Part shown: piece after piece, positions 1-14,162 of the stretch
How positions within the stretch are numbered: the first letter of the stretch is position 1
Layout: each line of letters opens with the position of its first letter
DNA from: Bdellovibrionales bacterium GWB1_55_8
GTDB lineage: Bacteria; Bdellovibrionota; UBA1018
NCBI GenBank assembly: GCA_001769835.1
Contig: MEPR01000058.1
Span: 59,806 to 105,371, forward strand
Length of the DNA stretch: 45,566 nucleotides
Reading direction: 5' to 3'
The notes under the pieces: generated by a model
Databases searched by the model: none
What the model was told of the DNA's origin: nothing
The model's input: only the letters and a program-made list of their open reading frames with translations
Translations under genes and position numbers: made by a program

Positions 1-629
1 GTCATGACGATCGTATCGAAGGTTTCCGCCAAATTTCCGCCGGTCTCCTTTAAAATATTGACGGAGGTCACGAACATCTCGACGTCGTCCGCTTTCATGC
101 GTTTGGAAAGATTGAGCAGCGCCTCTTCCAGGGGAACGCCAAGCTTGTTTTCATTCAGGATAAGGGTGAATTCCTGCTGGATCGGATTTGCCATTTCCTG
201 GGTCACAAGACCGAGTGACTGCACCACCGAAAGACCGGACTTCATGCCATTCGACATCAAACTCAAACCGTCGACCATCTGCAGAACGAACTTCTTCACA
301 CGTCTGCGGTAAATGAATTCAACGATCGGCTTCGGAGCCTTCCATCCGATCATCGTCACGACGGTCCCGAAGATCAAACCGGGAATGAACTGCGGCAGCA
401 TGAGAACCAGAACGACGGCGCCGAGACCGAAGCTGATCACGAACTGGCCGAGGAGGATCTGATGCGGCGGAATATCGATGAACATGAGGCTGAGCTTTTC
501 CGCGACGAAGTCGCGGGTACCGAGCGACTGGAACCTGAGCCAATCGAGGAACCTCTTGTTGTACTGGTACGCGATGACGAAAACCGCCGCCGAGATACCG
601 AGCATACCTAGCAATTTCAGCGCAACCAT
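1..629 (-). CDS. tadB: Tad pilus inner-membrane platform protein TadB (3' end cut by window edge)
   Basis: TadB is one of the two GspF-like polytopic proteins that form the inner-membrane platform of the Flp/Tad pilus and couple the CpaF/TadA ATPase to pilin polymerisation. About 209 codons are visible, starting at ATG 629 and still open at base 1, so the C-terminal part lies outside the window. The N-terminus is hydrophobic (LLGMLGISAAVFVIAY), a second hydrophobic stretch lies near residues 60-90, and the T2SSF-type cytoplasmic domain follows (GLSLMSNGMKSGLSVVQSL, then LEEALLNLSKRM). The gene begins 10 bases after the stop of the CpaE-CpaF fusion, the usual place for tadB in tad operons. TadC would be expected next, outside the window. 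Assignment rests on family-typical sequence plus position. Confidence 0.88.
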   Translation of the reverse strand, partial: MVALKLLGMLGISAAVFVIAYQYNKRFLDWLRFQSLGTRDFVAEKLSLMFIDIPPHQILLGQFVISFGLGAVVLVLMLPQFIPGLIFGTVVTMIGWKAPKPIVEFIYRRRVKKFVLQMVDGLSLMSNGMKSGLSVVQSLGLVTQEMANPIQQEFTLILNENKLGVPLEEALLNLSKRMKADDVEMFVTSVNILKETGGNLAETFDTIVM

Positions 630-638
630 GCCGCCAGC

Positions 639-2783
639 TTATCCTTTCGCCGCAAAAAGAGTTCTCGAAATGCGCATCCCCTTCGCTTCCATGTCTTCGA
701 CGAACTTCGGAATGAACCCCGTCGGCACGAAACGCCCGATGATCTTGCGCTTCTTGTCGAGGCCTTCCTGTTTGTAAATGAAAATGTCCTGCAGACTGAC
801 CACTTCGCCCTGCATGCCCGTCACCTCACTGATGTGTGTGACTTTACGCGTACCATCGCTCAAGCGACTCTGCTGAATGATCAGGCCGACTGCTGATGCG
901 ATATTCTCCCGGATCGCCTTGGCCGGAATACCGAGCCCGGCCATCATCACAAGGGTCTCCAGGCGAGCGATCGCCTCCCTGGGATTATTCGCATGCAAGG
1001 TCGTGAGAGAACCGGAATGGCCCGTATTCATCGCCTGCAGCATGTCCAAAGCCTCACCGCTTCGACACTCACCGACCACGATACGGTCGGGACGCATACG
1101 CAAGCAGGATTTGATCAGGTCGCGGATACTGACCTCGCCCTCGCCCTCGATATTCTTCGGGCGAGCCTCCAGCCTGACGACATGATCCTGCCCGAGCTGA
1201 AGCTCGGCGGAATCCTCCACCGTGATGATGCGTTCGGTGACCGGAATGAAATTCGACAGCACGTTGAGCAAAGTGGTCTTACCTGAACCGGTACCGCCCG
1301 AAACCACGATGTTCAACTTGGCCTCGACGCAGGAGCGTAGAAAATCGGCGATTTCTTCGGTCATGGAGCCGAAGCCCACGAGGTCCTTCACTTCAATTCG
1401 CTTCTTCGGAAACTTTCGAATCGTGATCGTCGGTCCGCGAAGGGCCAGGGGCGGAATGATCACGTGCACACGAGAACCATCACGCAGACGAGCATCAACA
1501 TAGGGTACTTTTTCATCCACGCGACGCCCAAGCGGCGTCACGATGCGCTCGACGACGTTCATGACCTGCTGTTCGCTGCTGAAGACCACCTTGGAAAGCT
1601 GAGGTTTGCCATTACGTTCGATGTAGATCTGGTCACGCGCATTGACCATGATTTCCGTGACCGAGTCATCCGCAAGCAGGTCCTCGAGCGGTCCGAGACC
1701 AAGAGCCTCGTCCAGCACCTCCTTGACGATCTGGGCCTTGAGTTCGCGCGTGGGCAGAAGACCGGCCGAGTCTTCCGTGACCAGAATATCCAGAATCGCT
1801 TTTTGCGTCTTCTCGCGAAGGATCGCCCTCTGCTTGGAATCACTGGTATCGGTCGAAGTCTTCTTCAGGTCCATCTGCTCGACCAGCGCCTTGTGGATCC
1901 GCAACTTCATGGCCGTCCAGGGATCCAGTGCCGCATTCGAACTGCGTTCCATCGGATTGGATTTCTGCGAATCGGAGGAGGCGCTCTGCTGAACCTTGGC
2001 CACGACGCCTGAAGGCTTTTTCAGCTTGGACAGGTTCTCAAGAAGATTTACCTGCTGCATCCTGCGAACAATATCGTGATAGGCACGCGCCACCTGGGTA
2101 TTCGGGGCCGCGATGCACAGAGGCGCACTCCTGGCCAGAGCGCCGTCGCAGGTGGCCGGATCATCGGGAACCGCTGCAAAGACCTGGCGACCCAGGGTCT
2201 TCTGGATAACCGGAAGTCCGATCAGGCTCGCCTGGGAATATCGATTCACCACGAGCTGAACCATCTCGGGCGGAAACAAAAGTTCCTGAATCTTGCCAAG
2301 AACCCGCTTCGTCTGATTCACGACGATCGCATCGGCCGCCATCACGACAAAAATCGCGGTGGCAAATTCGAAGGTCTTCAGCGCCCAGGGTTCCGTGCCG
2401 TTGCCGCAATCCACGACCGTCAGGCCGAAGACGTTGGTGATCGATTTCAAAAAACGTCCGTAACCATCCAGATCAAAATCAGAGACAGAGAAGCTGTCCC
2501 TCGGTGCCCCGATAAAGCTGTATCCAACCTGCGCATTCACCATGAATGGTGCCAGGGACTTCGGATCAATCGTCCCACCCTGGAGCTTCGAAACATCAAC
2601 GATGCTTCGCTGCGGATTCTGGCCCAGAATGATATTCATGTCCCCGAGCGCGTGAAGATCAAGGTCCACGATCAAAGGTCGCTGCCGGAGTTCCTGCAGA
2701 TACGCAATGGCGAGATTCGCGGCAAATACGCTTTTGCCCACGCCCCCTTTGCCTCCGACTACGGCGATGATGTGTCCGGCCAT
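639..2783 (-). CDS. cpaF: Fused CpaE/TadZ-like (MinD-type) ATPase and CpaF/TadA pilus motor ATPase
   Basis: One 714-residue reading frame holds two ATPases that are normally separate Tad proteins. Residues 1 to about 260 are a MinD/ParA-type domain: deviant Walker A GGKGGVGKS at 10-18 and the switch segment VDLDLHALGD near 39-48, as in TadZ/CpaE localisation factors but without their N-terminal receiver-like domain. A polar linker of about 30 residues follows. From about residue 289 comes a complete CpaF/TadA motor of the secretion ATPase superfamily: Walker A GGTGSGKT at 496-503 (K502), the Walker B/His-box region RPDRIVVGECR and LTTLHANNP. The frame is continuous, and an ATG at residue 292 has no convincing ribosome site. 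The gene sits between cpaC (13 bases away) and tadB. The fusion would tie polar localisation to the motor; that consequence is inference. Confidence 0.93.
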   Translation of the reverse strand: MAGHIIAVVGGKGGVGKSVFAANLAIAYLQELRQRPLIVDLDLHALGDMNIILGQNPQRSIVDVSKLQGGTIDPKSLAPFMVNAQVGYSFIGAPRDSFSVSDFDLDGYGRFLKSITNVFGLTVVDCGNGTEPWALKTFEFATAIFVVMAADAIVVNQTKRVLGKIQELLFPPEMVQLVVNRYSQASLIGLPVIQKTLGRQVFAAVPDDPATCDGALARSAPLCIAAPNTQVARAYHDIVRRMQQVNLLENLSKLKKPSGVVAKVQQSASSDSQKSNPMERSSNAALDPWTAMKLRIHKALVEQMDLKKTSTDTSDSKQRAILREKTQKAILDILVTEDSAGLLPTRELKAQIVKEVLDEALGLGPLEDLLADDSVTEIMVNARDQIYIERNGKPQLSKVVFSSEQQVMNVVERIVTPLGRRVDEKVPYVDARLRDGSRVHVIIPPLALRGPTITIRKFPKKRIEVKDLVGFGSMTEEIADFLRSCVEAKLNIVVSGGTGSGKTTLLNVLSNFIPVTERIITVEDSAELQLGQDHVVRLEARPKNIEGEGEVSIRDLIKSCLRMRPDRIVVGECRSGEALDMLQAMNTGHSGSLTTLHANNPREAIARLETLVMMAGLGIPAKAIRENIASAVGLIIQQSRLSDGTRKVTHISEVTGMQGEVVSLQDIFIYKQEGLDKKRKIIGRFVPTGFIPKFVEDMEAKGMRISRTLFAAKG

Positions 2784-2796
2784 TCCTTTTGCCTTT

Positions 2797-4377
2797 CTAA
2801 TTCACTTTTACGCGGAAATTCTTCTTCATGTCCTCGGTGCCCTGAGAGGCGTTCTCGATGATCTGCGGCGTGACGAAAATCACGAACTGGGACTTCTTCT
2901 TCCGGTAAGCCTTCGAGCGCAGCAGATTGAAAAGAGGCTCGGTTTTGCCCTCGAACGCACCTGAACTCGGGTCGTCCTTGTTGAAATCCGTCCCCACATC
3001 CGAGGAAGTGACGCCAGCCACGGCGGCGCTTTCGTTGGACTTGACGTAGATCTTGGTCTCGACGTTATGAACCGCGGTAATAGGCGCACCACCGGCTGCC
3101 GGGGCACGACCCACGAGGTTCGATTGTGTCATGATCAGATCCATCTGGATATCTTCACTTTGCCCCAGGATCTGCGGAGTAACCGCGACTGACAGTCCGA
3201 CCGGCTGCTTGCCAGCCGCGACCTGGCCGCCCTGTCCGGCATAGGAGAATGGGAACTCCGTCTGCTCAACGAGTTTCGCCGGCTGTCCGCTGCGAACGAT
3301 CGTCGTGGCACTTTTCAGGATCCGCGCGTAACCGGCGCTTTGGGCACTCTGCAGTTTCGGGATCAAGCTTGAGATCGTGCCACTGAATGAAGCACCGCTG
3401 GTCCCCGCTCCGCCGGCTGTGGTGGTGCCGATGCTGATTTGCGGGTCTGCGGTAAAGCCCGGCTGCCATTTGAAGCCGAACACCTTGTTATAATCTTTCG
3501 ACAACTCGACAAAATGTACCGTCACGCGGACCAATTTATCCTGCTTCTTCGGCGCTGGTGGATTCACGACGATGAAGTTCTGGATCAAGCTCCGTTGAGC
3601 AGCCAATGATTGCGCTCCCTGGTCGCGTGCCAGAAGAGGATCGCCGGGTCTCGGATCAGGAAGATAGAGCAGCGCGATCTGCGCCGCGCGTTTGGCCTGG
3701 TCGCCGTTGTCGACCGTCCCTTCAAGGAAAATCACCCCGTTCACGACACGGGTTTTGACGTTCTGGGCAAACGCGTTCACGTCCTCCTGTATGCGCTTGG
3801 CGATCACCTGGAGCGCGAGCTGCGAGAGAATCGTCAGATTCATCACGTGCGCCTTGTAGTTGTCGTCCTGAATCACGGTGAGAAGCCTTCCATAATCAGC
3901 CGGCACCAGGACTTCACCCTCGATCACGATTCTGGAACCGACGATCCGAATGTCGATGCCTTCAATATCCCGAAGAAGATCGCGAAGCTCAGTTGCGACA
4001 CGAAGCAGGTTGGTTCCTGAAACCCGGACCTGGAAAATCAGGCGCAAAGTTCCTTCATCGTCGCGAACGCTAACGGTGGTCTCACCGGCCTTGAGCGGCT
4101 TGAAAATGATCTGTCTTTTGTCGCCAGTCTTCACCAGGGTCGTCGCGACGACCTGGGGATTTCCGATACTGATCCCCTGCGCCTCGGTATGAGCCTGGAA
4201 ATCGAGATCAATGGCCCGGTCCTCGCCCGTGGTTAAGACTATGGTACGGCGATCAGCGGCTTCTTCCGAACGATCACTCGTGAGCCTGGACCCGCGACTC
4301 TCTTCCCCGTACCCCTGCGACTGCGGTAGCGCGATCGCGAGCACCAGAAGCAATGCGAACCACCATCGTGAGCTCAC
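2797..4377 (-). CDS. cpaC: Tad pilus outer-membrane secretin CpaC/RcpA
   Basis: This is the secretin ring through which the Flp pilus crosses the outer membrane. The protein has a signal peptide (WWFALLLVLAIALPQSQG), then the RcpA/CpaC-type N-terminal domain (RAIDLDFQAHTEAQGISI, near residues 50-70), BON/N1-like domains in the middle, and a C-terminal secretin domain (VRVTVHFVELSKDYNKVFGF, and the conserved VGLSVAVTPQI strand). The frame is open upstream to 4428, but GTG at 4377 is preferred: it lies one base after the cpaB stop, has GGGGAGG about 8 bases upstream, and places the signal peptide at the N-terminus, giving 526 residues. Translation is probably coupled to cpaB. No Tad pilotin was identified in the window. 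Confidence 0.92.
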   Translation of the reverse strand: MSSRWWFALLLVLAIALPQSQGYGEESRGSRLTSDRSEEAADRRTIVLTTGEDRAIDLDFQAHTEAQGISIGNPQVVATTLVKTGDKRQIIFKPLKAGETTVSVRDDEGTLRLIFQVRVSGTNLLRVATELRDLLRDIEGIDIRIVGSRIVIEGEVLVPADYGRLLTVIQDDNYKAHVMNLTILSQLALQVIAKRIQEDVNAFAQNVKTRVVNGVIFLEGTVDNGDQAKRAAQIALLYLPDPRPGDPLLARDQGAQSLAAQRSLIQNFIVVNPPAPKKQDKLVRVTVHFVELSKDYNKVFGFKWQPGFTADPQISIGTTTAGGAGTSGASFSGTISSLIPKLQSAQSAGYARILKSATTIVRSGQPAKLVEQTEFPFSYAGQGGQVAAGKQPVGLSVAVTPQILGQSEDIQMDLIMTQSNLVGRAPAAGGAPITAVHNVETKIYVKSNESAAVAGVTSSDVGTDFNKDDPSSGAFEGKTEPLFNLLRSKAYRKKKSQFVIFVTPQIIENASQGTEDMKKNFRVKVN

Positions 4378-4378
4378 G

Positions 4379-5215
4379 TCATCGCCTCCCCGCCGGCACG
4401 CGCTGCAACCGGTTCGCCGCCGTGCCAAGTACGTCGACCAGCATCACCGGTTCAGTATTCACGCGTTCCGTATCATCGTTATTCCGTAAAGAAAGCGTGA
4501 GCGCGCTTTCCCCGTTCGCAAGCACCAGCGCCAGCGCCTGAGCCTGCGCGGGCTCGACCTCGAGCGTCACGGAGGTGAAGCTGAAATCCTGGGCCAGCGA
4601 CCTGACTCTTTCCTTGCCGCCAAAGGCATCCGCCTCAATCACGCGCGGAACGTTATTGGTGACCGACCGGCCCGCAGCGAGAACGACGACATCCTGCAGA
4701 ACGGTCTTCGCGATCTTGTTCTCCTTGCCCCCGCCGGCATCGAGTACCGCGATCAGGTCCACGCGATCTCCCGGCTTCACGAGCTTGCTGACCCCGCGAA
4801 CGTCATCGATCGGAATCGAGATGGCGCGGCGTCCGATAGCGACCTGGGGCGACAGGCCCGTACGGATATTCGGCTCCGATAATTTATTGAAGGTGATCTG
4901 CTCGCCTTTTTTGATCGGAACAACGGCAACCAGCCCATCCAGCTCTTTCATGCCGCGTTTCTTGTCGTCATCGGAAACACTGGGCTCGAAGTAGATGGCA
5001 GCGGGCTCGAGGAATCGCTTGGGTACAGTCTCGAGCCCTACGTGCGTCTCATTGACCGTCTCCATCTCCTTGATGTCTTTTTTCGCCTTCACGACGACGA
5101 TGGACGTTCCGAAATTCTTACGTGTCTTCTCCTCGATGCTTTCGACGTAGCTCTGCACGAAAAAGAACGCGAGAGCCGCCATCATGAGAGACATCGTTAG
5201 AGCCTTGTTATTCAT
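4379..5215 (-). CDS. cpaB: Flp pilus assembly protein CpaB/RcpC
   Basis: CpaB/RcpC is a periplasmic, membrane-anchored SAF-domain protein that works with the secretin in Tad pilus assembly. The 278-residue protein starts with an N-terminal signal anchor (ALTMSLMMAALAFFFVQSYV), followed by the SAF-type segment (KKDIKEMETVNETHVGLETV at about 44-65) and the CpaB domain core (AISIPIDDVRGVSKLVKPGD, then RVDLIAVLDAGG). Length and layout are normal for the family. Its start overlaps the upstream pseudopilin stop by four bases (ATGA), and its stop is one base from the secretin start, so all three are probably translationally coupled. Confidence 0.92.
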   Translation of the reverse strand: MNNKALTMSLMMAALAFFFVQSYVESIEEKTRKNFGTSIVVVKAKKDIKEMETVNETHVGLETVPKRFLEPAAIYFEPSVSDDDKKRGMKELDGLVAVVPIKKGEQITFNKLSEPNIRTGLSPQVAIGRRAISIPIDDVRGVSKLVKPGDRVDLIAVLDAGGGKENKIAKTVLQDVVVLAAGRSVTNNVPRVIEADAFGGKERVRSLAQDFSFTSVTLEVEPAQAQALALVLANGESALTLSLRNNDDTERVNTEPVMLVDVLGTAANRLQRVPAGRR

Positions 5216-5751
5216 AAAGGACTCCTGCAGGGTTGAAAGGTCGATCCCTCATTCAGGGCATACGTGCTCACGGCTTCGAAATCGCCGCCACCGAGCCTCA
5301 AAATCGCTTTGCCATCCGCCAGAACATTCTGCTGCGTGCACAGCACCACGTTCGTCCTCACGCGTACGGCGGCTCGCAGCTCAGGTTCTTCGGCGCTGTT
5401 TTCATTCCCTTGCACGCCTTTGCGCGCCACCTGTTGAACCGTTGCAACGGGCGTCGACGCGTCTTCGACTTTGTCAGCGGAAACACCGATCACCATCTGG
5501 TTGTACCCTCTGCCGGTGAGCGACTCCTGGCGCAGGCGGTTTTGCGGGAAGACAGGACTGTTGTAGGTGAGGAAGAGAGCCTGAGCCCGGGCATACTGCT
5601 GGTTCACGATTGAAACCTGGATCGCGGTGTTCGCTTTCACCATCATCGACACCAGTCCGAGCAGCACCGGCAGCAAAAGCAGAAACTCGAGAAGGCTTTG
5701 CCCCTTCTCGCCCGCCTGTTCCTGCTGATGCTTCACGCTCTTAACAACCAT
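5212..5751 (-). CDS. TadE/TadG-type minor pseudopilin
   Basis: A 179-residue Tad pseudopilin. Its N-terminus has a class III prepilin motif, KGQSLLEFLLLLPVLLG at about residues 17-33, where the prepilin peptidase is expected to cut after the Gly and where the Glu at +5 is present. A single hydrophobic helix follows, then a 140-residue periplasmic domain containing QQYARAQALFL and a conserved-looking Cys pair region near the end (VLCTQQN and FQPCRSPL). TadE-family proteins are minor pilins needed for Flp fibre assembly. The start at 5751 overlaps the previous gene by 11 bases. TadE, TadF or TadG cannot be decided from sequence alone. Confidence 0.8.
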   Translation of the reverse strand: MVVKSVKHQQEQAGEKGQSLLEFLLLLPVLLGLVSMMVKANTAIQVSIVNQQYARAQALFLTYNSPVFPQNRLRQESLTGRGYNQMVIGVSADKVEDASTPVATVQQVARKGVQGNENSAEEPELRAAVRVRTNVVLCTQQNVLADGKAILRLGGGDFEAVSTYALNEGSTFQPCRSPL

Positions 5752-6289
5752 TGTCCCAGTCCGCCCTCATCTTGCTCATTTCGCCCTGGCACTCGGAATA
5801 GCTGGGTTCACGACCCAACCAACTTTCCGATGTCAGTTCGATTTCATTGAGATTTCCTACGGAACCAGCTCCTCCGAACGGAATCAGGAAAAGTCGGCTC
5901 CTAAATGTATATCGGACTCCCCTCATCCAACTTAAGGCCGGATTTCCAGGCTCATAACGCTCGTGGTCAAAAGCAAGCCCAGGAACGTTCCCGCCGCCAT
6001 GCCCCTTCGCGATCATGGGGAACTTATCCACTCCCGGTGTATTGACGCTCTTTTTGAGCATCGCAAGGATGACCTGCTCAGCCCGCTTCTCCTGGGTGCC
6101 GTCGGCGCCCGCCGCAAGATACGCCCTGGCCGCCATAAAAGTGGCGTAATGGACATAATTGCCAAAACCAAACATCAAGGACAGCCTGAGGAAAAACATG
6201 GTGAAGCTCATCAAAAGGATGAGAGTCAGCGCGAACTCGATCGTGGACTGTCCTGCCTCCCGGCTGTCTGGTTTCCTCATAGTCATCAT
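5741..6289 (-). CDS. TadE-like minor pseudopilin
   Basis: A 182-residue pseudopilin with the N-terminal motif AGQSTIEFALTLILLMSF (Gly at the cleavage position, Glu at +5, then a hydrophobic helix) starting near residue 13. The periplasmic part includes the TadE-like stretch NYVHYATFMAARAYLAAG, and two Cys lie close to the C-terminus (YSECQGE, DNGC). The start is ambiguous among ATG 6289, 6286 and 6280; 6289 gives an ATGA overlap with the preceding gene and is kept. It is the second of two consecutive TadE-type proteins in this operon, and both probably form minor components of the pilus tip or base. Confidence 0.82.
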   Translation of the reverse strand: MMTMRKPDSREAGQSTIEFALTLILLMSFTMFFLRLSLMFGFGNYVHYATFMAARAYLAAGADGTQEKRAEQVILAMLKKSVNTPGVDKFPMIAKGHGGGNVPGLAFDHERYEPGNPALSWMRGVRYTFRSRLFLIPFGGAGSVGNLNEIELTSESWLGREPSYSECQGEMSKMRADWDNGC

Positions 6290-6567
6290 TGTGGGTTAAT
6301 GAAGATCCGGAAATTGTTTTCACCGCCCGTGACGCGCGGATGCCGCGAAGGGGAACCTTCGTCAAATCCGGTGGTCTTCGGATGCCCGTATTTGTAAGCC
6401 CGCGCGAAATCCTCGCGAATTGGTTTTAAAAGCGCCTCCCCCACTTTAAAGCGTTCCATCCCGCCGGCCACGATCGTGAACGCCATCACCACGAGAGCCA
6501 CGAGCAGGATGTATTCCACAACAGCCTGCCCTCGTTCATCCCGATGGTTCACGTTTCTCAGTTCCAT
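6286..6567 (-). CDS. Flp-like prepilin with extended C-terminal tail
   Basis: A 93-residue protein with a Flp/TadE-type leader, DERGQAVVEYILLVALVVMA (residues 10-29), containing the G-x4-E-Y class III prepilin signature. Unlike the 61-residue Flp next door it carries a longer hydrophilic tail of about 50 residues (KPIREDFARAYKYGHPKTTG). ATG 6567 is chosen because the family motif then lies 10 residues from the start and the start overlaps tadV by only 10 bases. The frame is open further upstream, but that extension is antisense-like sequence within tadV. It may be a minor pilin rather than the major fibre subunit. Confidence 0.75.
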   Translation of the reverse strand: MELRNVNHRDERGQAVVEYILLVALVVMAFTIVAGGMERFKVGEALLKPIREDFARAYKYGHPKTTGFDEGSPSRHPRVTGGENNFRIFINPQ

Positions 6568-7112
6568 AGAAACCAGCCTTTCAGGGGAGCTGCGAAGAGG
6601 CCCCATACGGCGGCAATCGCTATCGGTACGCCAAAGGGCATCGTGAAGCCGCGATCGACCTTTGGCATTTCGAGGACCAGGTCCTTGATGAAAAGAGTGA
6701 GAAGAAAGCGGTACATTCGCACGGAAAAACCCCGAATCCGCCCCGTGAAAATCATGACGACAAGTCCGATCGCGCCCCCGAGAAGTACCGCGAGAATAGC
6801 GACTTCCGTGACGTAACGGGGCCCGCCCCAGGCGCCCAGAGCCATGAGAAATTTCACATCGCCACCGCCCATGGCGCCAAGCCAGAACATCCACCCGTAA
6901 AGAAGCAGACCGAGACCGATGCCGAGCGCCGATTGTCCAACCGCGGTCCAGCCGCCCCAGTAAATAGCGGCGACCACCCCAAGGAGAAGCGTGGGAAGCG
7001 TCAACCAGTTGAAAATCCTCCCACGCACGAGATCAGTGACGATCGCCACCACCGCGACAGCAGGAATAACGAACTTCGCAACCTGCGGAAGAAGCTCACT
7101 TCCAGAGGCCAC
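6558..7112 (-). CDS. cpaA: Prepilin peptidase TadV/CpaA (A24 family)
   Basis: TadV/CpaA is the inner-membrane aspartic peptidase that removes the leader from Flp and the TadE/F pseudopilins. The 184-residue protein is almost entirely hydrophobic, with about five or six membrane spans. The two catalytic Asp of A24 peptidases are visible: one in IVTDLVRGRIFNWLT (about residue 27) and one in the signature GGGDVKFLMALGA (about residue 85). There is no N-terminal methyltransferase domain, as is usual for the short Tad form. Start is GTG 7112 with an AGGAAGGA ribosome site 7 bases upstream. It overlaps its neighbours on both sides. Confidence 0.92.
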   Translation of the reverse strand: MASGSELLPQVAKFVIPAVAVVAIVTDLVRGRIFNWLTLPTLLLGVVAAIYWGGWTAVGQSALGIGLGLLLYGWMFWLGAMGGGDVKFLMALGAWGGPRYVTEVAILAVLLGGAIGLVVMIFTGRIRGFSVRMYRFLLTLFIKDLVLEMPKVDRGFTMPFGVPIAIAAVWGLFAAPLKGWFLWN

Positions 7113-7338
7113 TGTTCATCCTTCCTGTTTTGAGATCTTTTTCGAGCTGACCCCCGAAGCGCAGAATGCCTCGATCAACGACTCCGAGGAGACCGCGTGC
7201 CATTGCACCCGCTGCGACGACCGCAACGGAGAGGATCAGGATGTACTCGACCGTGGCTTGCCCCCGATCGTCTTGAAGAAGACGATCAAGCGCCCCGTTA
7301 CGGCGAGTGACGGATGCGACTGGCTGCTCCAGCACCAT
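7096..7338 (-). CDS. Second Flp-type pilin
   Basis: An 80-residue Flp-family prepilin. The leader ends in DDRGQATVEYILILSVAVVA (residues 23-42) with the G-x4-E-Y processing motif, followed by a hydrophobic helix and a short tail (RFGGQLEKDLKTG). The 5' leader peptide is long at about 25 residues. ATG 7338 is preceded by GGAGG four bases upstream. It follows flp after a 41-base gap and overlaps tadV by 17 bases, so it is in the same transcript. Having a second Flp copy is known in other tad loci; which copy is the major subunit is unknown. Confidence 0.85.
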   Translation of the reverse strand: MVLEQPVASVTRRNGALDRLLQDDRGQATVEYILILSVAVVAAGAMARGLLGVVDRGILRFGGQLEKDLKTGRMNSGLWK

Positions 7339-7379
7339 GCATCCTCCAGTCTAGCTGAAACTTGAAAAATCAGCGCTAA

Positions 7380-7565
7380 TTACATGCTGGTGGCGCTTTC
7401 AATATCGCCACCGAGCTTGTCGACGACTTTCATCAGCTTGTCACGGAACACGTCCTTGAACTTGACCGCAACCATCACGACAACGGCCAAAATCAGAATG
7501 TATTCAGTGGTCGACTGTCCCCGTTCGTCGTGCCACAAATTTTTCAGGAAACTTTGTCCTGTCAT
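7380..7565 (-). CDS. flp: Flp major pilin candidate
   Basis: A 61-residue Flp/Fap pilin: short leader HDERGQSTTEYILILAVVVM with the G-x4-E-Y class III prepilin motif, hydrophobic helix, then FKDVFRDKLMKVVDKLGGDI. It is the first gene of the tad operon, the usual place for the abundant fibre subunit. The start ATG 7565 is chosen over GTG 7571 because the ribosome site AAAGGAG overlaps the GTG but lies 5-6 bases from the ATG. A sigma70-like promoter lies about 100 bases upstream. Confidence 0.9.
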   Translation of the reverse strand: MTGQSFLKNLWHDERGQSTTEYILILAVVVMVAVKFKDVFRDKLMKVVDKLGGDIESATSM

Positions 7566-7665
7566 ACCCACTCCTTTATTCCCCTTTCCCCCACCTATCG
7601 GTATGAAAAGGGAAAAACCTGACTCCCTGCCCCCGCAAAAGGAGCCTTCGAAACAACTTTCTTAA

Positions 7666-7694
7666 ATTATCCCGTCCTGGACCTTTTTGGTCAA
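7666..7694 (-). promoter_or_regulatory. Sigma70-like promoter of the flp/tad operon
   Basis: Reading the minus strand, TTGACC (7694-7689) is followed after exactly 17 bases by GATAAT (7671-7666). This is a near-consensus -35/-10 pair with ideal spacing. It gives a leader of roughly 90 bases before the flp ATG at 7565 and lies in the only gap between the tad operon and the FHA/PP2C cluster. The -35 box lies in a small inverted repeat, GGACC-TTTTT-GGTC (7680-7692 on the plus strand), which could be an operator; that is inference. Confidence 0.7.
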
Positions 7695-7719
7695 GAACTC
7701 ATTATTCAACCCTTGCACT

Positions 7720-8487
7720 TTAGAAAACTATCAGAGAACTCGCCATGTTGGCGGTTCCATCCTCAGCTTGTAACTGGTCCTGCAGCCATGCTGGAAACTC
7801 CGAACGTATCTTGGCGGAATCTTTCAACTCTTTCTTCCTTGCCAGTAACTCACCTTGCGCAAACGCCCCCATACTCCCCGTTGAAAGAATCAGCCAGTCA
7901 CCAGGCCTGATTCGAAATTCCCAGACCTCCGGCTCCAGATCCTCACTGATTCCAAGAGCCATGAGCGGAAATCGAGGCGTGGTGAGTTTTTCGGTCCCGA
8001 AGGGATCCGCCAGACGGCTATAGGCACGCGGAGTCACGAGTTGCACAGCGCGTTCTTCACGCAACAGCCAGGCCTCACACCCGCCCACGCTCGCCAAGGC
8101 CAGCAGGTCTCCGTCCAGGAAGCCCGCAATGACGGATGCACCGCCTTTTTCGTGAATGCCTTTGTCCCGATTGAGAGACAGCACTTTCCTGTTCGCGTGA
8201 ACAAGAGCATTGAACAAGACATTGCCGGCCAGTGAAAAATACGTTCTGAGAACAAAAGGAAGAGTGGCTTCAAGATCTCCCGCCTCTTTGATGAGAAACT
8301 CACGAACTCCTTCAGCGGCCGTTTTCGACGCATTGCTGCCCGCCTCAGGGCCGCCAAACCCGTCGGCTACCGCAAATACGCCGCGTGCGGCGTCGCCCAT
8401 GACGAAGTCCTCCTGAGCAGGCCTGCTTCCCTGATGCAGGAAAGTTGAGATCGCGCGAATGGGTAACTTGCTGTTCCTCACCGTCAC
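7720..8487 (-). CDS. PP2C-fold protein with lost metal ligands (probable pseudophosphatase)
   Basis: A 255-residue protein of the PPM/PP2C fold, a family of Mn/Mg-dependent Ser/Thr phosphatases. The N-terminal motifs are intact: QED at 25-27 and VADGFGG at 40-46. Three later motifs are altered. The usual VGDSR is SVGGCEAW; the Asp-Gly motif that normally follows a run like LILST is Gly-Ser (G204-S205); and the terminal Asp-Asn is Ala-Asn (A246-N247). The last two Asp normally bind the second metal, so activity is doubtful, though a one-metal or regulatory role is possible. The start overlaps the stop of the FHA-TPR gene by four bases (ATGA). PP2C and FHA genes usually go with Ser/Thr kinases, but none is in the window. 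Confidence 0.85.
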   Translation of the reverse strand: MTVRNSKLPIRAISTFLHQGSRPAQEDFVMGDAARGVFAVADGFGGPEAGSNASKTAAEGVREFLIKEAGDLEATLPFVLRTYFSLAGNVLFNALVHANRKVLSLNRDKGIHEKGGASVIAGFLDGDLLALASVGGCEAWLLREERAVQLVTPRAYSRLADPFGTEKLTTPRFPLMALGISEDLEPEVWEFRIRPGDWLILSTGSMGAFAQGELLARKKELKDSAKIRSEFPAWLQDQLQAEDGTANMASSLIVF

Positions 8488-10757
8488 TGAATGCTCCCAT
8501 CCAGCCGGGTGTAATTAGCCAGTTTCCGCTGCGCACGCTGATAATACACATCGTCTTTAGGGGCGATTTCGAGGCACTCCTTGAACTTCTGGCGAGCGGT
8601 CGCGAAATCGCTGTAGCTCTCGGCGAGAATCGCCTCTGTATAAACTCCTTTGGCCTTGTCGTGCAGTATCCCTTTTTGGCGTGCCATTCCGTCATGAGCT
8701 TCACGGTGAGCAGGATCCACTTGAGAAGCGGAATAGTAGAGCTGGTAGGCTCGCGCGTATTCTCCGCCATCCTCCATCTGTTTTGCCTCGGCCATCAACG
8801 GGTCGCGACTGGAAGCGACGGCCTCATGCGAATCCGCGATACCTTTCTTGGCAACCGCGTTCACCTTCTTGTCCGTGGCACCGATTTCGAGAACTTGCCC
8901 GAACCCCCGTATCGCGACGTGATGCTTTCCGGCCTTCTGTTCCTCAAGCGCCTCCCGATAAACGGCCCAGGCCTGCTTGTTGATCTCGGCTCTCACCTGC
9001 GCTTCCTGCTCCTTGGCCCGGCGCTGCTCTTCCATTTCGTCGAGCTGCCGCCGCCAATCAGCGATTTGCGTATTGTCGGGATCAAGAGCAAGCACTTCGG
9101 CGAAGGATTCGCGAGCACGTTCATACTGCCGCTTTTTCATCAATCCGCCGGCTTCGGCGACGAGCGTATCGATACGCTGTCTGAGTCGTTCCTTTTCCTC
9201 TGCAGCGCGTCTCCGTTCCTCGGCGCGCTGCACTTCCTCTTTTCTAAGAACAGCGATACTTTCGATCTCCATCGCGCGCTCATAATTCGGAATCAGCGCG
9301 AGAACCTGCCGGATGGCCGAAAGCGTACTGTCGTAATCCTTTTTCTGTGCATAAGTAAGCGCTTCCTGAATCTTGGATTCCACGAAAGCCTTTTCCTTTT
9401 CAGTCAGGGTCTCATACGTCTTCACGGCTGATTGAGTCTTTGTGGTCTGAGCGACTTTGTCTTTTTGCTCACCGCCGGGCTTCGGATCCTCCAGGAAGAA
9501 AAGCGCACCCAATCCAACGACCGCGATGATCAGTATCCGTTGCCTCTTCGGAAGGGCCCGGAATTTTCCGAGCAGACTTCCATCTGATTGCGGACCCCCG
9601 ACGCCGGCGATGTTACCCAACCCTGTAACACCTGCGCCGCCCGGAGCAGCCGCGCCGGGAAAATTCCCTATCTGAGACTGGACCTGCTCCGGCCAGGCGA
9701 TTCCCACATTCGAAGAGCCCGGCTGCGGAGAAATATCGGGCTGTTGCGCCGGAAAATCACCTCCAGGCATGGAGATATCCGGCAAAGCCATGGAGGGTTC
9801 CGACGCCTCCATCATCTCCAATGGAAGAATCTGATCTTTCTGCGCATCGTAATCCAGACTGGCTGCAACGAAGCGGAACTCGGTATCGCCGATGCGAATC
9901 AAATCGTCACCGGAGAGCTCAGCCTCAGTCACACGGGCCCCGTTCACAAGGGTGCCGTTCGACGAACCGAGATCCTTCAAAACGAAACTGATACCGGCCT
10001 TCCGGATGATCGTGTTCTTCCGCGAGGCCTTTTTGTCATTCAGTACGATGTCGCAGCTTTGGCCACGTCCAATCGAAATTTCAGAACCTGTCAGCTCGAA
10101 TTCCTCTACGTTCGCCTGGCCGGCTTGAAAGACGAGTTTTACCGAAATTTTCGCCGCTGGCGAAAGCTTTGTATGTGCATCATCTTCCCCGACCTCGAAG
10201 GCCTCGGACACGGCAGGTTCCTGAACCCCGACATCCAGCGACACGGCAAGCGAATCCGAAGCCGCATCAACCCCCGCAACCCCAGCAACCTCCGACGCCT
10301 CAAACGTTTGAGCAGGAATCGCCACGTCGGCAGACTCAGGCGTTTCAACAGGCAAATCGGCTGCCACATTGTCGAGGTTCACGGAATCAACGGCTCCGTC
10401 CGCGCTCGGCTGCGGTTGCGAAGGCTGCGGCTGCGCCGCTACCGATGTCGTGGCGGAAGGTGTCGCCAGCGTCAGCAGGTAAGGTCCGAGCGAAATGATA
10501 TCGCCTTCCTTGAGAATGGCCCTCGAACAGTCCTTGCCATTCACGAGCAATGGAGCGAATTCGCTCTTTTTCTCCACCTGAACGCCGCCCGGCGTAAGCT
10601 TGAAAGAGACATGCTGACGTGAGATTGCGCGATCTTCCAGGCGGATCAGACAATTCTCGGATCGTCCAAGCACAGCTTCGCCTTCGATCGGGAGCTTGCG
10701 GATCGTTTCGCCGTTCTTGAGGATGGTTAGAATTGGCGCAGCACCCATGTCAGCCAC
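8484..10757 (-). CDS. Double FHA domain, single-span membrane protein with TPR repeats
   Basis: A 757-residue protein with two FHA phosphothreonine-binding domains. FHA1 (residues 8-95) has VLGRSENC and SRQH but lacks the GSxNG loop. FHA2 (about 205-300) has IGRGQSCDI, SRKN in place of the usual SRxH, and GSSNGTLVNG. A Pro/Gly-rich linker leads to one membrane span at about 405-423 (RILIIAVVGLGALFF), preceded by basic residues. The C-terminal 330 residues form TPR-like helical repeats and a charged coiled-coil stretch (EVQRAEERRRAAEEKERLRQ). By the positive-inside rule the FHA part is cytoplasmic and the TPR part periplasmic. It overlaps both neighbours (8 and 4 bases), so the cluster is one operon. 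The ligand is unknown. Confidence 0.85.
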   Translation of the reverse strand: MADMGAAPILTILKNGETIRKLPIEGEAVLGRSENCLIRLEDRAISRQHVSFKLTPGGVQVEKKSEFAPLLVNGKDCSRAILKEGDIISLGPYLLTLATPSATTSVAAQPQPSQPQPSADGAVDSVNLDNVAADLPVETPESADVAIPAQTFEASEVAGVAGVDAASDSLAVSLDVGVQEPAVSEAFEVGEDDAHTKLSPAAKISVKLVFQAGQANVEEFELTGSEISIGRGQSCDIVLNDKKASRKNTIIRKAGISFVLKDLGSSNGTLVNGARVTEAELSGDDLIRIGDTEFRFVAASLDYDAQKDQILPLEMMEASEPSMALPDISMPGGDFPAQQPDISPQPGSSNVGIAWPEQVQSQIGNFPGAAAPGGAGVTGLGNIAGVGGPQSDGSLLGKFRALPKRQRILIIAVVGLGALFFLEDPKPGGEQKDKVAQTTKTQSAVKTYETLTEKEKAFVESKIQEALTYAQKKDYDSTLSAIRQVLALIPNYERAMEIESIAVLRKEEVQRAEERRRAAEEKERLRQRIDTLVAEAGGLMKKRQYERARESFAEVLALDPDNTQIADWRRQLDEMEEQRRAKEQEAQVRAEINKQAWAVYREALEEQKAGKHHVAIRGFGQVLEIGATDKKVNAVAKKGIADSHEAVASSRDPLMAEAKQMEDGGEYARAYQLYYSASQVDPAHREAHDGMARQKGILHDKAKGVYTEAILAESYSDFATARQKFKECLEIAPKDDVYYQRAQRKLANYTRLDGSIQ

Positions 10758-11715
10758 TGCCTCCCTGCTGCTTCATGATTTTTTCGCGCTGCTCCTTGGC
10801 TTCAACGAAGGCGGGGTCCGACTGGTTTCGATGCATCAGCCGAAGCACTGATTCAAAATGACCGCGTGCTTGCTTCAGCTTCCCGGCATCCAAGGTCTTT
10901 TTACCCTGTACAAGATGCATCTTCACTTCCTCTTCGATGCGCTTGTCGCACGTTTTGAGATAACTTGACGCGAGGTAATGCTCCGGAACGACCTGAAGAA
11001 CGGTCTCGAATTGGCGCCGAGCCCGAAGATAATTTCCCTGGCGATACTCCCGGAATCCGATCTCAAAAAAGGCATCAGCGGCCTTGTTTTGCGGGATCTC
11101 ACCACGCAGTGACGCGATATCGCGGATGCTTTGGGCGACATCGACCGAATCTTTTTTCACCGGTTTCTTTGGATCGTCATCAGATAGAAAAAGAAACGCA
11201 AGCACCACGAGTCCGCCGACAAGGAGGAGCTTCCCCCCGCCTCCGCCTGACCGGGACGCACCGGCGAAGGGCGCTTGACCGATGGCCTCATATCGCGCGG
11301 CAAGCGCGGAGTGATCCATACTGACCTGGGAGAAACTCTTCGCAGGAGCCGAGAGCATGGCTGTTCCCGCTTCGGCAGCCATGAATTCCAACGTTGTTTC
11401 GCCGATCGTGATCGTGTCGCCTGACCGCAACATCGCTTCTCGTGTCTGCTGCCCATTATGCAGAATCCCGTTGGCGCTTCCCTGATCTAGAACAGTCCAA
11501 TTGCCAGCGGGCCCCTGACTTAAGGTGGCATGCACCCGTGATGCCTTCAGATCGGAAATGACAATGTCATTGCCTTCACCACGGCCCATCACCGCCTTGG
11601 ACGACGTGACCACAAACACCCATCCATAATCAGGCCCGCGAACGACTTTAAGCCGGGCCTGTTCACCCGGCTGCCGCTCCACTTTGGCCTGCTTGAATTT
11701 CAGGGTGGGCGCCAT
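10750..11715 (-). CDS. FHA domain, single-span membrane protein with TPR-like repeats
   Basis: A 321-residue smaller relative of the next gene with the same layout. One FHA domain (residues about 20-110) has intact signatures VMGRGEGNDI, SRVH and GSANGILHNG. A Gly/Ser-rich linker follows, then a membrane span at about 160-178 (KLLLVGGLVVLAFLFLS), and a C-terminal TPR-like region (FEIGFREYRQGNYLRARRQF, then LDAGKLKQARGHFESVLRL). The ATG at 11715 shares its A with the stop of the preceding gene (TGATG) and has AGGAGGG just upstream. TTG 11718 would be too close to that site. It probably relays or scaffolds a phosphothreonine signal across the inner membrane; that role is inference. Confidence 0.85.
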   Translation of the reverse strand: MAPTLKFKQAKVERQPGEQARLKVVRGPDYGWVFVVTSSKAVMGRGEGNDIVISDLKASRVHATLSQGPAGNWTVLDQGSANGILHNGQQTREAMLRSGDTITIGETTLEFMAAEAGTAMLSAPAKSFSQVSMDHSALAARYEAIGQAPFAGASRSGGGGGKLLLVGGLVVLAFLFLSDDDPKKPVKKDSVDVAQSIRDIASLRGEIPQNKAADAFFEIGFREYRQGNYLRARRQFETVLQVVPEHYLASSYLKTCDKRIEEEVKMHLVQGKKTLDAGKLKQARGHFESVLRLMHRNQSDPAFVEAKEQREKIMKQQGGSG

Positions 11716-13349
11716 CAACCCTCCTGCCTTTCCGCCGCGACCACATAGCCGCGAGCCCCGCCCGCGCCGCTCCCGAAGCTGGCCGCGTGCAGTTTGTAGG
11801 CGACGCCGGAAAACTCGTAATCGTCAACCGCGGTACCAACGCTGGACGCGCGGTCCAGGAGATCATCCACCAAAGCTATGAATGACTGCTCCCGTCCCTG
11901 CGAAGACAGGGTCTGACCTATGGCCGAATCAGAGCGGATTCCGGAAACGTCTTCAAAAGACTGATTCAGGTAAACGACAATGCGATTTGAATCGCAGACC
12001 ACGATCGGTTGTTTCTGGAGATTCCCGATCATCTGAACCGGCATCGAAATCTCGTCAATGGAAGGTCCCGAATCGGCTGAAAGCTGGCCGGTGGCGCTTC
12101 CCTTTGGAACGCGCTGTAAAGTCGAGTCGATCAGGTCCCAAAGGGAATTCAGCTCGGAAAACTTGTGTTCCCGAGTGATCCGGACGAGGTCCCCCTTGAG
12201 GACTTTGTCCATATCATCCGTCAGGACCTGAAACGGTCTGAGCGTCGTGCGGTACAACGCGAAGATGATCAAGGCTCCGAGCAGTCCCGTCAGAATGAGG
12301 GTCTTGGAATACACCACACCCATTTCGCCGATATCAGGAGTGGCAAGAGAAGTGTCGACCGTGACTATCGCCATGGCGACCGTTACGTTCCGTCCGGCAG
12401 TTGAATCATACAACAGCACGGGCTCGATCGCCGTGACGCTCTCCGAATCGAGGGCCTTGACCACCGCGGATCCATTGCGCTCAAATCGATCTCTGGCCTG
12501 TACCGCCAGAACAGCCTCTGGTCCTGACGTAAGAAAATTGTTCGCGCGACGCGGGGCCAGGACCTTGCTGTCCATATCGACCAGAACCGCCAGCTGAACG
12601 CCGTCGCTCTTCTCGATCACGGGATCAATGTCGAGCTTCGATTCAGCGCGTGACGCGAGAAAAGGCGAGTTCCTTTCCGCGATCAGCTTGGCGATGAACC
12701 GAGCTCGGGTGGCCGCTTCTTTAACGACCGCTTCCCGACCCGATTCAATCAATGGATGAACCGAGACCAGGAGATTCGCCACGATGAACGCCATGAAGAA
12801 TCCGACAACCAGAAAGCTCCACTCGTATTTCAGGTTCAATCCGTAGAAAAACGGCATGAGTCTCTGCTCAAGGAACCATGCAAGTTTACCTTTCAGATCC
12901 GTCGGGACAATCGGTGCCGCCGGAGCGGACTGATGACCGCCCATTCCCGCCATCCCGCCTACCGGTGGGAAATGATTTCGATGCGCGGCTGGCGCGGAAC
13001 CCGGAATGGCGACACCGCGTCCGAACCCCTGGGCAGGAGGCGGTGCTTTTGGCTTTTTCGCGGCCGGTACATCTATCTCCAGAATGTATTCCCCGACACT
13101 GACGCGATCACCGGGTCGGATGGTCTTTTTCTTGGTAAGGGCTCCGTTCACGAACGTGCCGTTTGAGCTTCCCTCATCCTGAACGGTCACTTCGTTCCCG
13201 CTTACGAGCAAAACACAGTGCCGCTTCGACACACGCGCGGACTGCAGGACAATGGCATTGCCTGTCTGGCGTCCGATGGAATTCTCGCCTTCGCGAATCA
13301 TGAAACTGCTGCCGCGATTCGGTCCGGCGACAATCGTTACGCGATACAT
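11715..13349 (-). CDS. FHA-transmembrane sensor-PAS protein without an output kinase
   Basis: A 544-residue membrane sensor. Residues 1-90 are an FHA domain (SIGRQTGNAIVL, SKRH, GSSNGTFVNG). A first membrane span lies at about 178-199 (FLVVGFFMAFIVANLLVS), then an extracytoplasmic domain of about 145 residues that looks like a single Cache/PAS-type sensor (QLAVLVDMDSKVLAPRRA), a second span at about 345-365, a HAMP-like stretch (TLRPFQVLTDDMDKVLKGDL), and a PAS domain from about 438 (KQPIVVCDSNRIVVYLNQSF). No kinase, cyclase or GGDEF domain follows. ATG 13349 has GGAG 7 bases upstream and starts right at the FHA domain, so it is preferred to the longer frame to 13448, which runs into the DUF192 gene. 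It overlaps DUF192 by 13 bases. Confidence 0.84.
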   Translation of the reverse strand: MYRVTIVAGPNRGSSFMIREGENSIGRQTGNAIVLQSARVSKRHCVLLVSGNEVTVQDEGSSNGTFVNGALTKKKTIRPGDRVSVGEYILEIDVPAAKKPKAPPPAQGFGRGVAIPGSAPAAHRNHFPPVGGMAGMGGHQSAPAAPIVPTDLKGKLAWFLEQRLMPFFYGLNLKYEWSFLVVGFFMAFIVANLLVSVHPLIESGREAVVKEAATRARFIAKLIAERNSPFLASRAESKLDIDPVIEKSDGVQLAVLVDMDSKVLAPRRANNFLTSGPEAVLAVQARDRFERNGSAVVKALDSESVTAIEPVLLYDSTAGRNVTVAMAIVTVDTSLATPDIGEMGVVYSKTLILTGLLGALIIFALYRTTLRPFQVLTDDMDKVLKGDLVRITREHKFSELNSLWDLIDSTLQRVPKGSATGQLSADSGPSIDEISMPVQMIGNLQKQPIVVCDSNRIVVYLNQSFEDVSGIRSDSAIGQTLSSQGREQSFIALVDDLLDRASSVGTAVDDYEFSGVAYKLHAASFGSGAGGARGYVVAAERQEG

Positions 13350-13765
13350 AGTTCGTCTCCGGGGTGTATCGATTGAGCCCGCACGGTTCCTGCCGGCAAT
13401 TCGAGAGTGTGCTCTGCGCGTCCGTCTCGTAGAGGCAAAAGGCGCCACGGCATCGCCTGCTCGCGAACGGAACAGACTTTGAACTTTCGAGATCCTTCGA
13501 TGCCTGGCAATTCAGTCAGAAAAACAATGTCGATCGGGATCCGCATGAACCACATATGGACATCGTTGCAGCGAGGAAAAAGCATTCCCTCCCCGCTCGC
13601 AAGCAAGGTCCGTCCGATCAATCCTCTGAGGCGATCTAAAAAGCGCTCTGCCACAATGCACTTATCGGCAATAACCGCCTGATTTTTTAGGGACTTAAGT
13701 TTGAGAACTTTTCGCCCTCCGGAATCCGTGTCGAAAGGAGTCCAAGGCGATTGAAAAAAGGCCAT
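13337..13765 (-). CDS. DUF192 family protein
   Basis: A 142-residue DUF192 (UPF0127) protein, a small beta-rich fold of uncertain biochemical role. The domain spans about residues 20-140, with family-typical stretches AERFLDRLRGLIGRTLL, GMLFPRCNDVHMWFMRIPID and the terminal VRAQSIHPGDELCIA. Here it is the first gene of the FHA cluster and overlaps the FHA-PAS sensor gene by 13 bases. Members are often found next to secretion and pilus genes, which suits the nearby tad locus. No clear ribosome site precedes ATG 13765; a TACAAT box 7 bases before it raises the possibility of a leaderless start, weakly supported. Confidence 0.82.
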   Translation of the reverse strand: MAFFQSPWTPFDTDSGGRKVLKLKSLKNQAVIADKCIVAERFLDRLRGLIGRTLLASGEGMLFPRCNDVHMWFMRIPIDIVFLTELPGIEGSRKFKVCSVREQAMPWRLLPLRDGRAEHTLELPAGTVRAQSIHPGDELCIA

Positions 13766-13806
13766 AAAATCATTGTACCCCAGGCATCGAATTCGGCCCT
13801 TGCGGA

Positions 13807-14118
13807 TTAACTGGCCTTGGAAAACCCTTCACTATCGCGCTCTTGAGCCATTTGGCGGAGCTCGCGCGTGATTTTCCCGATTTTTTCGGAAGCATTACGA
13901 ATCTGCATAAGAGATTCGGCCGCTCGCTTCGGGTCCAAGGTGCCGCCGAGGGCCGCGTCTTCCAGCAACTCCGCTCGCGCGGAAATCACGGTCAGATGAT
14001 TATTGATGTCATGAAGAAGGCGACGGGCCGAAGGAGAGAGCCGGACCGGCGATTCAGGCGTGCCACCAGCCTGCTCCGTCGAAAACAGCCGCTTCAGGAT
14101 CATTTCGAAACGAGTCAC
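13807..14118 (-). CDS. Stand-alone histidine-kinase dimerisation (DHp/HisKA-like) protein
   Basis: A 103-residue protein made almost entirely of a DHp-like helical hairpin. The H-box is LLHDINNHLTVISARAELLE (residues 34-53, His36 the likely phospho-acceptor), and the second helix is IRNASEKIGKITRELRQMA. There is no HATPase domain in frame or directly downstream, so it cannot phosphorylate itself; it could be a phosphotransfer protein in the manner of ChpT, or an orphan partner. Start is GTG 14118 or ATG 14103: AGAAGGA abuts the GTG, so neither is well placed. It lies 41 bases upstream of DUF192 on the same strand and may lead the FHA operon. Confidence 0.7.
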   Translation of the reverse strand: MTRFEMILKRLFSTEQAGGTPESPVRLSPSARRLLHDINNHLTVISARAELLEDAALGGTLDPKRAAESLMQIRNASEKIGKITRELRQMAQERDSEGFSKAS

Positions 14119-14162
14119 TCCTTCTGATCGGATTCAGCGGATGAATTCTTTATATATGGAAT

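Follow-up and report, generated by a model that had tools for sequence, protein, structure and literature searches.

A five-gene FHA, TPR and PP2C-like module beside the Tad pilus genes of Bdellovibrionota

We analysed a stretch of 45,566 nucleotides (the window) from the Bdellovibrionales bacterium GWB1_55_8 (contig MEPR01000058.1), in which five genes on the minus strand, from position 13765 to 7720, directly precede the pilin genes of a Tad (type IVb) pilus operon on the same strand. This block encodes a DUF192 protein, an FHA protein with a sensor part and a PAS domain (FHA-PAS), a short and a long protein in which FHA domains are joined through a membrane span to TPR repeats, and a PP2C-like protein. 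In our assessment, the five genes, which are orthologous to Bd0471-Bd0475 of Bdellovibrio, probably form an accessory module that serves the Tad (type IVb, Kil-like) pilus machine throughout Bdellovibrionota and reads phosphothreonine across the membrane. The role in the Tad system is well supported, and the likely function is that of a checkpoint or scaffold which spans the membrane at the Tad machine and is read through phosphothreonine; the signalling mechanism we infer from what is known of FHA domains and from a published mutant. The module itself is real, conserved and functional, and of a kind already in print. Chance is ruled out as an explanation of the block because order and strand are kept across genomes.

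These genes bear on the open question of how prey contact leads a predatory bacterium to deploy its Tad pilus, for which a sensory cascade among FHA proteins has been guessed (PMC8460266). An earlier note on this DNA had held that the combination of genes matches no named system. That claim has to be given up: the genes are counterparts of Bd0471-Bd0475, which are in print, and a cascade has been proposed for the FHA-rich Kil systems (PMC8460266), an idea to which that of the earlier note is close. The interest of the locus lies instead in the identity of its PP2C-like protein, in the repeated decay of that protein set against the invariant sites of the FHA domains, and in an operon uniting Tad genes that Bdellovibrio carries as two separate halves.

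The five genes and their counterparts in Bdellovibrio

The open reading frames (ORFs) lie where the earlier note had placed five overlapping genes, and the domains it named are backed by Pfam matches or a structural model. Neighbouring genes share a few bases at all four junctions, for example GTGA between the long FHA-TPR and PP2C-like genes and TGATG between the FHA-PAS and short FHA-TPR genes, and the likely start of the FHA-PAS gene, an ATG at 13349, lies within the DUF192 gene. By hydropathy, the FHA-PAS protein has two spans (residues 206-236 and 376-403), and the short and long FHA-TPR proteins have one each (residues 157-183 and 404-426, respectively). The PAS matches of the FHA-PAS protein (0.0006 and 0.0003 in Pfam) fall slightly below the curated cut-offs. 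Altogether the block holds three FHA proteins with four FHA domains (Pfam).

The long gene of the window is the counterpart of Bd0474, because all 12 of the 12 Bd0474 interface residues given in Table 4 of PMC12034629 are found at their published numbers in the long protein of genome G187; the neighbours correspond to Bd0470-Bd0475 in order. The operon of B. bacteriovorus (L183) runs as in the taxonomic order to which the window belongs, with tadC, DUF192, an FHA protein with two spans, a short FHA-TPR protein, a long FHA-FHA-TPR protein and a PP2C-like protein, and the window keeps the order and strand of Bd0471-Bd0475. The two arrangements also differ. In strain HD100 about 341 kb separate the operon from the cpaB gene of the main tad operon, whereas in the window the block is contiguous with tad; tadC is directly upstream in Bdellovibrio but not in the window; and the PAS match of the window's protein is lacking in its HD100 counterpart (Pfam).

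Bd0471-Bd0475 have been described as predation genes in the tadC operon (PMC6561027, PMC12034629), with tadC (Bd0470) upstream within the operon of Bd0474 (PMC6561027). The transposon mutant Bd0474::tn attaches to prey without killing or rounding it, and was complemented, while the tadC mutant failed at attachment; a requirement for killing after attachment is published for Bd0474 only (PMC6561027). Two FHA domains and an extracytoplasmic TPR domain have been described for Bd0474, together with two-hybrid binding to the TPR protein Bd0075 (PMC12034629). In addition, Bd0473 and Bd0475 have been predicted to pair, with an interface predicted template modelling score (ipTM) of 0.604 (PMC12034629). 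The genes bd0109-bd0119 form the main tad operon; mutants in flp still adhere, yet are unable to prey (PMC5430801).

Of the 55 genomes of the order, 53 have the long protein, as do 344 of the 368 genomes of the phylum sample (a deeper look added one weak match, in G311); cpaB is present in 352 of the 368. Co-occurrence of block and tad was rejected as evidence, and we used only gene order for the Tad link, because the long protein and cpaB are both nearly universal. Neighbourhoods were read in 52 genomes of the order and in 20 genomes of 14 other families (one locus per genome, the 20 chosen among 36 with a match), and the table for the order covers 51 of its 52 loci, L087 being left out for want of a scored long protein.

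The gene order in the window's order is tadC, DUF192, FHA-PAS, short FHA-TPR, long FHA-TPR, PP2C-like, flp, tadV, further pilin and tadE-like genes, cpaB, cpaC, tadZA and tadB. Among the 51 loci, the long and PP2C-like genes adjoin in 47 (4 at a contig end), the short and long genes in 48 (1 not adjacent, 2 at an end), FHA-PAS and the short gene in 41 (2 not adjacent, 5 at an end, 3 without an anchor), DUF192 and FHA-PAS in 42 (2 at an end or without room, 7 without an anchor), tadC and DUF192 in 34 (5 not adjacent, 3 at an end or without room, 9 without an anchor), and the PP2C-like gene and flp in 38 (5 not adjacent, 4 at an end, 4 without an anchor). For the 20 loci of other families, adjacency was 19/20 for the long and PP2C-like genes, 20/20 for each of the four junctions from the long gene up to tadC, and 3/20 for the PP2C-like gene and flp (16 not adjacent, 1 without a PP2C anchor). 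From these counts, we conclude that the five genes and tadC are one unit, which the remaining tad genes join in some lineages only.

The distance to cpaB varies accordingly, from about 2 kb (G342) or 3.8 kb (G016, of the window's order) for the long gene to at least 145 kb for both the long and PP2C-like genes in 12 of 12 single-contig Bdellovibrionaceae. The link with Tad suggested in the earlier note is borne out by the position of the block inside the tad operon in the order and by tadC upstream in all 20 loci of other families. The observation that it had named as telling against such a link, a cluster found mostly away from tad, was made in part: flp is adjacent in only the three loci mentioned above and the Bdellovibrionaceae carry the block far from cpaB, but in the other families it always follows tadC. 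What is new here is that the contiguous arrangement in the window's order ties Bd0470-0475 to bd0109-0119. What in Bdellovibrio are two separate parts of the Tad gene set form a single operon there, and Bd0474, the gene needed for killing, is thereby placed together with its neighbours alongside the pilus machine.

FHA ligand sites and the decay of the PP2C-like protein

The arginine and serine of the FHA domains, which we take to be the phosphothreonine-contact residues, are near-invariant across the block. In the long protein, the arginine is present in 68 of 68 and the serine in 65 of 68 aligned sequences for the first FHA domain, and both are present in 68 of 68 for the second. Each of the two is present in 63 of 64 sequences of the short FHA-TPR protein (the arginine being R46) and likewise in 63 of 64 for the FHA-PAS protein, whose R60, S74 and N96 are identical in 63 of 64 with one gap. 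Alignment A1 consisted of the window and 42 of 45 long proteins (L082, L084 and L085 left out), and alignments A2 and A3 of the window and 32 of 33 sequences each (L122 left out of both).

The earlier note had described the two FHA-TPR proteins as sharing an architecture with cytoplasmic FHA and periplasmic TPR parts. Each does have one span, FHA and TPR, but the long protein carries two FHA domains, and the FHA-span-TPR plan is all that the two have in common; a common origin of their TPR parts was tried and rejected, as the pairwise match is not significant (E 0.067). The topology fared better: among proteins with a clear span, its N-terminal flank carries more positive charge in 58 of the 66 long and 40 of the 62 short ones, which supports a predicted N-in/C-out orientation. 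The C-terminal 373 residues of the long protein were modelled with a predicted local distance difference test score (pLDDT) of 88.8 and a predicted template modelling score (pTM) of 0.59. The predicted extracytoplasmic part is an extended rod of TPR hairpins joined by helices of 30-49 residues, to which TPR proteins in the PDB match piecewise only (template modelling scores of 0.11-0.19), with no entry resembling the whole rod; this prediction, too, is new.

By sequence, the window's PP2C-like protein is a weak match to its family (PP2C_2 in Pfam, E 0.004, below the cut-off; tPphA in a PDB sequence search, E 1.4e-5). Its AlphaFold2 model, with a mean pLDDT of 91.7, identifies it as a predicted PP2C fold: Foldseek gives tPphA as the first hit (E 6.9e-17), and the type VI secretion phosphatase PppA is within the ten best (5.4e-15). 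Two of its four metal ligands are lost, as D27 and D42 are retained but G204 and A246 stand in place of the SDG and DN aspartates, so that the label of pseudo-PP2C given to it in the earlier note holds for the window copy. All four aspartates are present in 19 of 47 copies of the window's order and in 3 of 19 other copies, and the Bdellovibrionaceae copies that we read keep none or one; these counts depend on the alignment, chiefly at the DN position near the C-terminus, and may overcount decayed copies. The most conserved stretch of the family within the order, residues 65-100 (EAGDLEATLPF..SLAGN), is apart from the metal motifs.

On a tree of 68 long proteins, 63 of them with a PP2C state, the metal site changed state at least 10 times by parsimony, with 2 changes forced by well-supported branches; the tree was made by a quick method and has many open forks. 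Complete sites occur in 20 of the 63 copies. Another new result is that the metal site appears, from the aligned copies, to have been lost repeatedly while the phosphothreonine-contact residues of the FHA domains stayed near-invariant.

Bd0475 itself retains at most one metal ligand. It has no Pfam match on its own, and the Bd0475 family found nothing in the PDB up to E 1. Its kinship to PP2C rests on intermediates rather than on direct matches: the family aligns with that of the window's PP2C-like protein (hhalign probability 98.1, E 1.1e-13) and, profile against profile, with the f9 family (96.5%), whose copies have all four metal aspartates and PppA as best PDB match (E 1.3e-10). These profile comparisons identify Bd0475 as a diverged relative of PP2C. 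The identification is new, and it gives a fold to a protein termed hypothetical in print; we found no description of Bd0475 as PP2C-like in the open-access literature.

Proposed mechanism and alternatives

What the sequences show is a co-translated FHA/TPR module that is linked to Tad and spans the membrane, with a sensor protein and a PP2C-like partner. We propose that a Hanks kinase encoded elsewhere would phosphorylate a partner protein on threonine, and that the cytoplasmic FHA domains of the FHA-PAS sensor and of both bitopic TPR proteins would dock this partner at the inner-membrane platform made up of TadC, TadB and the TadA motor. The binding state would be relayed through the membrane to the extracytoplasmic TPR rods. 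These would engage other envelope parts, as Bd0474 of Bdellovibrio binds Bd0075, and their engagement would license pilus action after prey contact. The PP2C-like protein may have begun as a PppA-type phosphatase that reset the switch, and in many lineages, including that of the window, it would persist as a pseudophosphatase whose sole role is binding, its partner probably being the short FHA-TPR protein. A more far-reaching version can be offered only tentatively: a phosphothreonine checkpoint throughout Bdellovibrionota that gates the Tad pilus after prey contact, in which a PppA-type phosphatase was repeatedly turned into a pseudophosphatase guarding the FHA switch rather than resetting it, with the periplasmic TPR rods as output. 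The FHA arginines and PP2C aspartates given above are residues with which the guess of a sensory cascade could be probed.

Known systems other than the Bdellovibrio operon resemble the block in part. The secretin of the window has an N-terminal PF13629 domain, which we take to be an N0 domain. The Kil system of Myxococcus xanthus resembles the window in its Tad platform, ATPase, secretin, CpaB and several FHA proteins (PMC8460266), the likeness being drawn from the published description. As described there, Kil is a Tad-like system with an excess of FHA proteins of unknown function, for which an FHA signalling cascade was proposed, and Bdellovibrionales are among its bearers. The presence of several FHA proteins with Tad genes, a Kil-type feature, is found in the window (the three proteins and four domains described above). 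However, KilF has an N-terminal FHA domain, whereas the window's ATPase has an N-terminal MinD/TadZ-CpaE-like domain and no FHA match, and the KilC secretin, unlike that of the window, lacks N0 (PMC8460266).

The threonine phosphorylation pathway of the type VI secretion system consists of PpkA, PppA and Fha, and the block is like it in having an FHA protein and a PppA-type PP2C beside an envelope machine used on contact. The pathway has the kinase PpkA, while the locus has no PpkA-like kinase; in addition, the FHA proteins of the block cross the membrane and carry TPR parts, and its PP2C often lacks the metal site. Judged by the features of this pathway, the window has the intact FHA phosphothreonine site, and it has neither a PP2C likely to be active (two of four ligands absent) nor a Hanks kinase in the locus. 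The pathway is mentioned in PMC8460266 and PMC5995506. Finally, SctD and GltG-type bitopic FHA proteins share with the block a cytoplasmic FHA domain, one span and extracytoplasmic repeats. The block proteins match both models weakly, far below the curated cut-offs (for SctD, TIGR02500, 31.4 bits against 86), and differ in that their phosphothreonine-contact residues are conserved.

Several observations weigh against our reading of the block as a phosphothreonine-reading Tad module. Neither the window nor the neighbourhoods scanned (1.13 Mb in total) yielded a Pkinase-like frame. The earlier note's statement that no Ser/Thr kinase is present is true of the locus but not of the genome, which has two Hanks kinases elsewhere, neither near tad, both with a C-terminal part past a likely span and one with a PEGA match. 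A Hanks kinase with a matching distribution, for which the same note had proposed a search, did not emerge: PF00069 is present in 365 of the 368 phylum genomes, so that no partner can be singled out or tied to the block by distribution, and presence at this level neither supports nor excludes one. Of the three genomes without a Pkinase match, all incomplete assemblies, G351 and G356 have a match to the long protein and G352 a weak one. Where the block is split from tad, only tadC precedes it, and the window genome's own tadC is on another contig (G000:C21:43888-44787), with a HisKA-only ORF and a ROK gene upstream of the block instead. The FHA domains of the block also match the Pfam model of SctD, and FHA domains of the SctD type serve structure without phosphothreonine. 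Moreover, the window's genome is known from sequence alone, and nothing supports its bearer as a predator. As a separate observation, another possible FHA-kinase pair in this genome is found at L035:4791-8111, where a Hanks kinase lies beside a regulator that by eye resembles FHA, GAF and sigma-54 activator proteins.

The likeness to SctD leads to the most serious alternative, which we consider unlikely but well short of negligible: a purely structural scaffold, in which FHA-span-TPR proteins form a ring or struts round the Tad platform, the PP2C-like protein is a building block and no phosphorylation is read. All three FHA proteins match PF16697, the cytoplasmic domain of SctD, kinases are lacking locally in the neighbourhoods scanned, PP2C catalysis appears dispensable given the ligands lost in many copies, and the extracytoplasmic part of the long protein is modelled as an extended rod whose helices reach 49 residues and which TPR proteins match only piecewise. 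However, a structural FHA domain need not retain phosphothreonine-contact residues that are near-invariant in all four domains, the block includes a sensor-PAS protein, and complete PP2C sites persist among the copies on the tree. It is improbable that the window's PP2C-like protein still works as a phosphatase, with its metals arranged in another way, and forms the reset arm of the switch. Its modelled fold is intact, the first-motif residues D27 and D42 are retained and four ligands persist in 19 of the 47 own-order copies, but the SDG and DN aspartates are absent from the window copy, Bdellovibrionaceae copies have none or one of the four, and conservation is strongest apart from the metal motifs.

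Still less probable is an independent signalling operon for another envelope machine, such as gliding or type IVa pili, to which tad would merely be a neighbour. It would fit the lack of a scored adjacent flp in 17 of 20 loci of other families and the distance of the PP2C-like and long genes from cpaB in Bdellovibrionaceae. It is opposed by tadC, which stays with the block in all 20 of those loci, by the place of the block inside the tad operon in the window's order, and by the mutants of Bd0474 and flp, which alike attach without killing (PMC6561027, PMC5430801), although the tadC mutant differs from both in failing to attach.

The adjoining Tad operon

The window contains a Tad (type IVb) set with TadA ATPase, TadB, secretin, CpaB, prepilin peptidase and Flp pilin all present (Table 1). 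The class III pilin motif of Flp is also reported in PMC5430801. The flp gene is shorter than the usual ORF length limit and could easily be missed there by annotation. TadZ and TadA are fused in a single frame, and similar lengths (717-739 aa) are usual in the order.

Table 1. Genes of the five-gene block and of the Tad operon that follows it in the window
Feature	Coordinates	Strand	Evidence
DUF192 protein, first in block, counterpart of Bd0471	13337..13765	-	PF02643, E 3.4e-16
FHA - span - extracytoplasmic sensor - span - PAS protein, counterpart of Bd0472	11715..13448	-	PF00498, 60.0 bits
Short FHA - span - TPR protein, counterpart of Bd0473	10750..11718	-	PF00498, 54.6 bits; TPR_2, 25 bits
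Long protein with two FHA domains, linker, span and extracytoplasmic TPR rod, counterpart of Bd0474	8484..10757	-	FHA, 94.6 bits (two stretches), TPR_2 (Pfam)
PP2C-fold protein (predicted), metal site incomplete, counterpart of Bd0475	7720..8487	-	AlphaFold2 model and Foldseek
Flp pilin (GQSTTEY motif), first gene past block	7380..7571	-	63-aa ORF from GTG (ATG at 7565), class III pilin motif
Second Flp-like pilin	7096..7338	-	Class III signal motif, E 5.7e-4, below cut-off
Prepilin peptidase TadV/CpaA	6558..7112	-	PF01478, 6.4e-16
ORF with third Flp-like pilin at C-terminal end	6286..6894	-	Class III signal motif at residues 121-143, E 0.023
TadE-like protein	5741..6289	-	PF07811, 9.7e-5, at cut-off
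Conserved operon protein without family	5212..5751	-	No Pfam match; same place in most long own-order loci
CpaB/RcpC	4379..5215	-	TIGR03177, 142 bits, cut-off 71
Secretin CpaC/RcpA	2797..4428	-	PF00263, 1e-16, and PF13629 (residues 61-137)
TadZ/CpaE-like domain fused to TadA ATPase	639..2783	-	MinD-type residues 5-264, T2SSE 361-638
TadB, cut by window edge	1..633	-	Open frame at edge; continues in L033

The earlier note had the block running directly into the promoter of the flp/tad operon. The flp gene does adjoin the PP2C-like gene, but the promoter does not stand out: a sigma-70-like box lies between the two at 7694-7666, and such boxes, 3 in positions 7000-14300 against a shuffle mean of 2.7, are no more frequent than chance, so that we rejected the box as promoter evidence. 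A FliA-type promoter was likewise rejected, with 9 matches (at most 3 mismatches) against 7.9 expected and none at the flp promoter.

Directly upstream of the block, the HisKA-only ORF at 13807-14118 encodes 103 residues of this phospho-acceptor domain; it could represent a remnant or serve in phosphotransfer. In the relatives L036 and L042, full-length histidine kinases occupy the slot upstream of the block, and tadC is absent there too. The tadC of the window genome (L205:7386-8333) stands alone among genes of the opposite strand, and is 67% identical to that of L038. Beyond the left edge of the window, tadB is followed on the same strand by a gene (L033:12994-14709) whose product, judged by eye, carries YD-type repeats.

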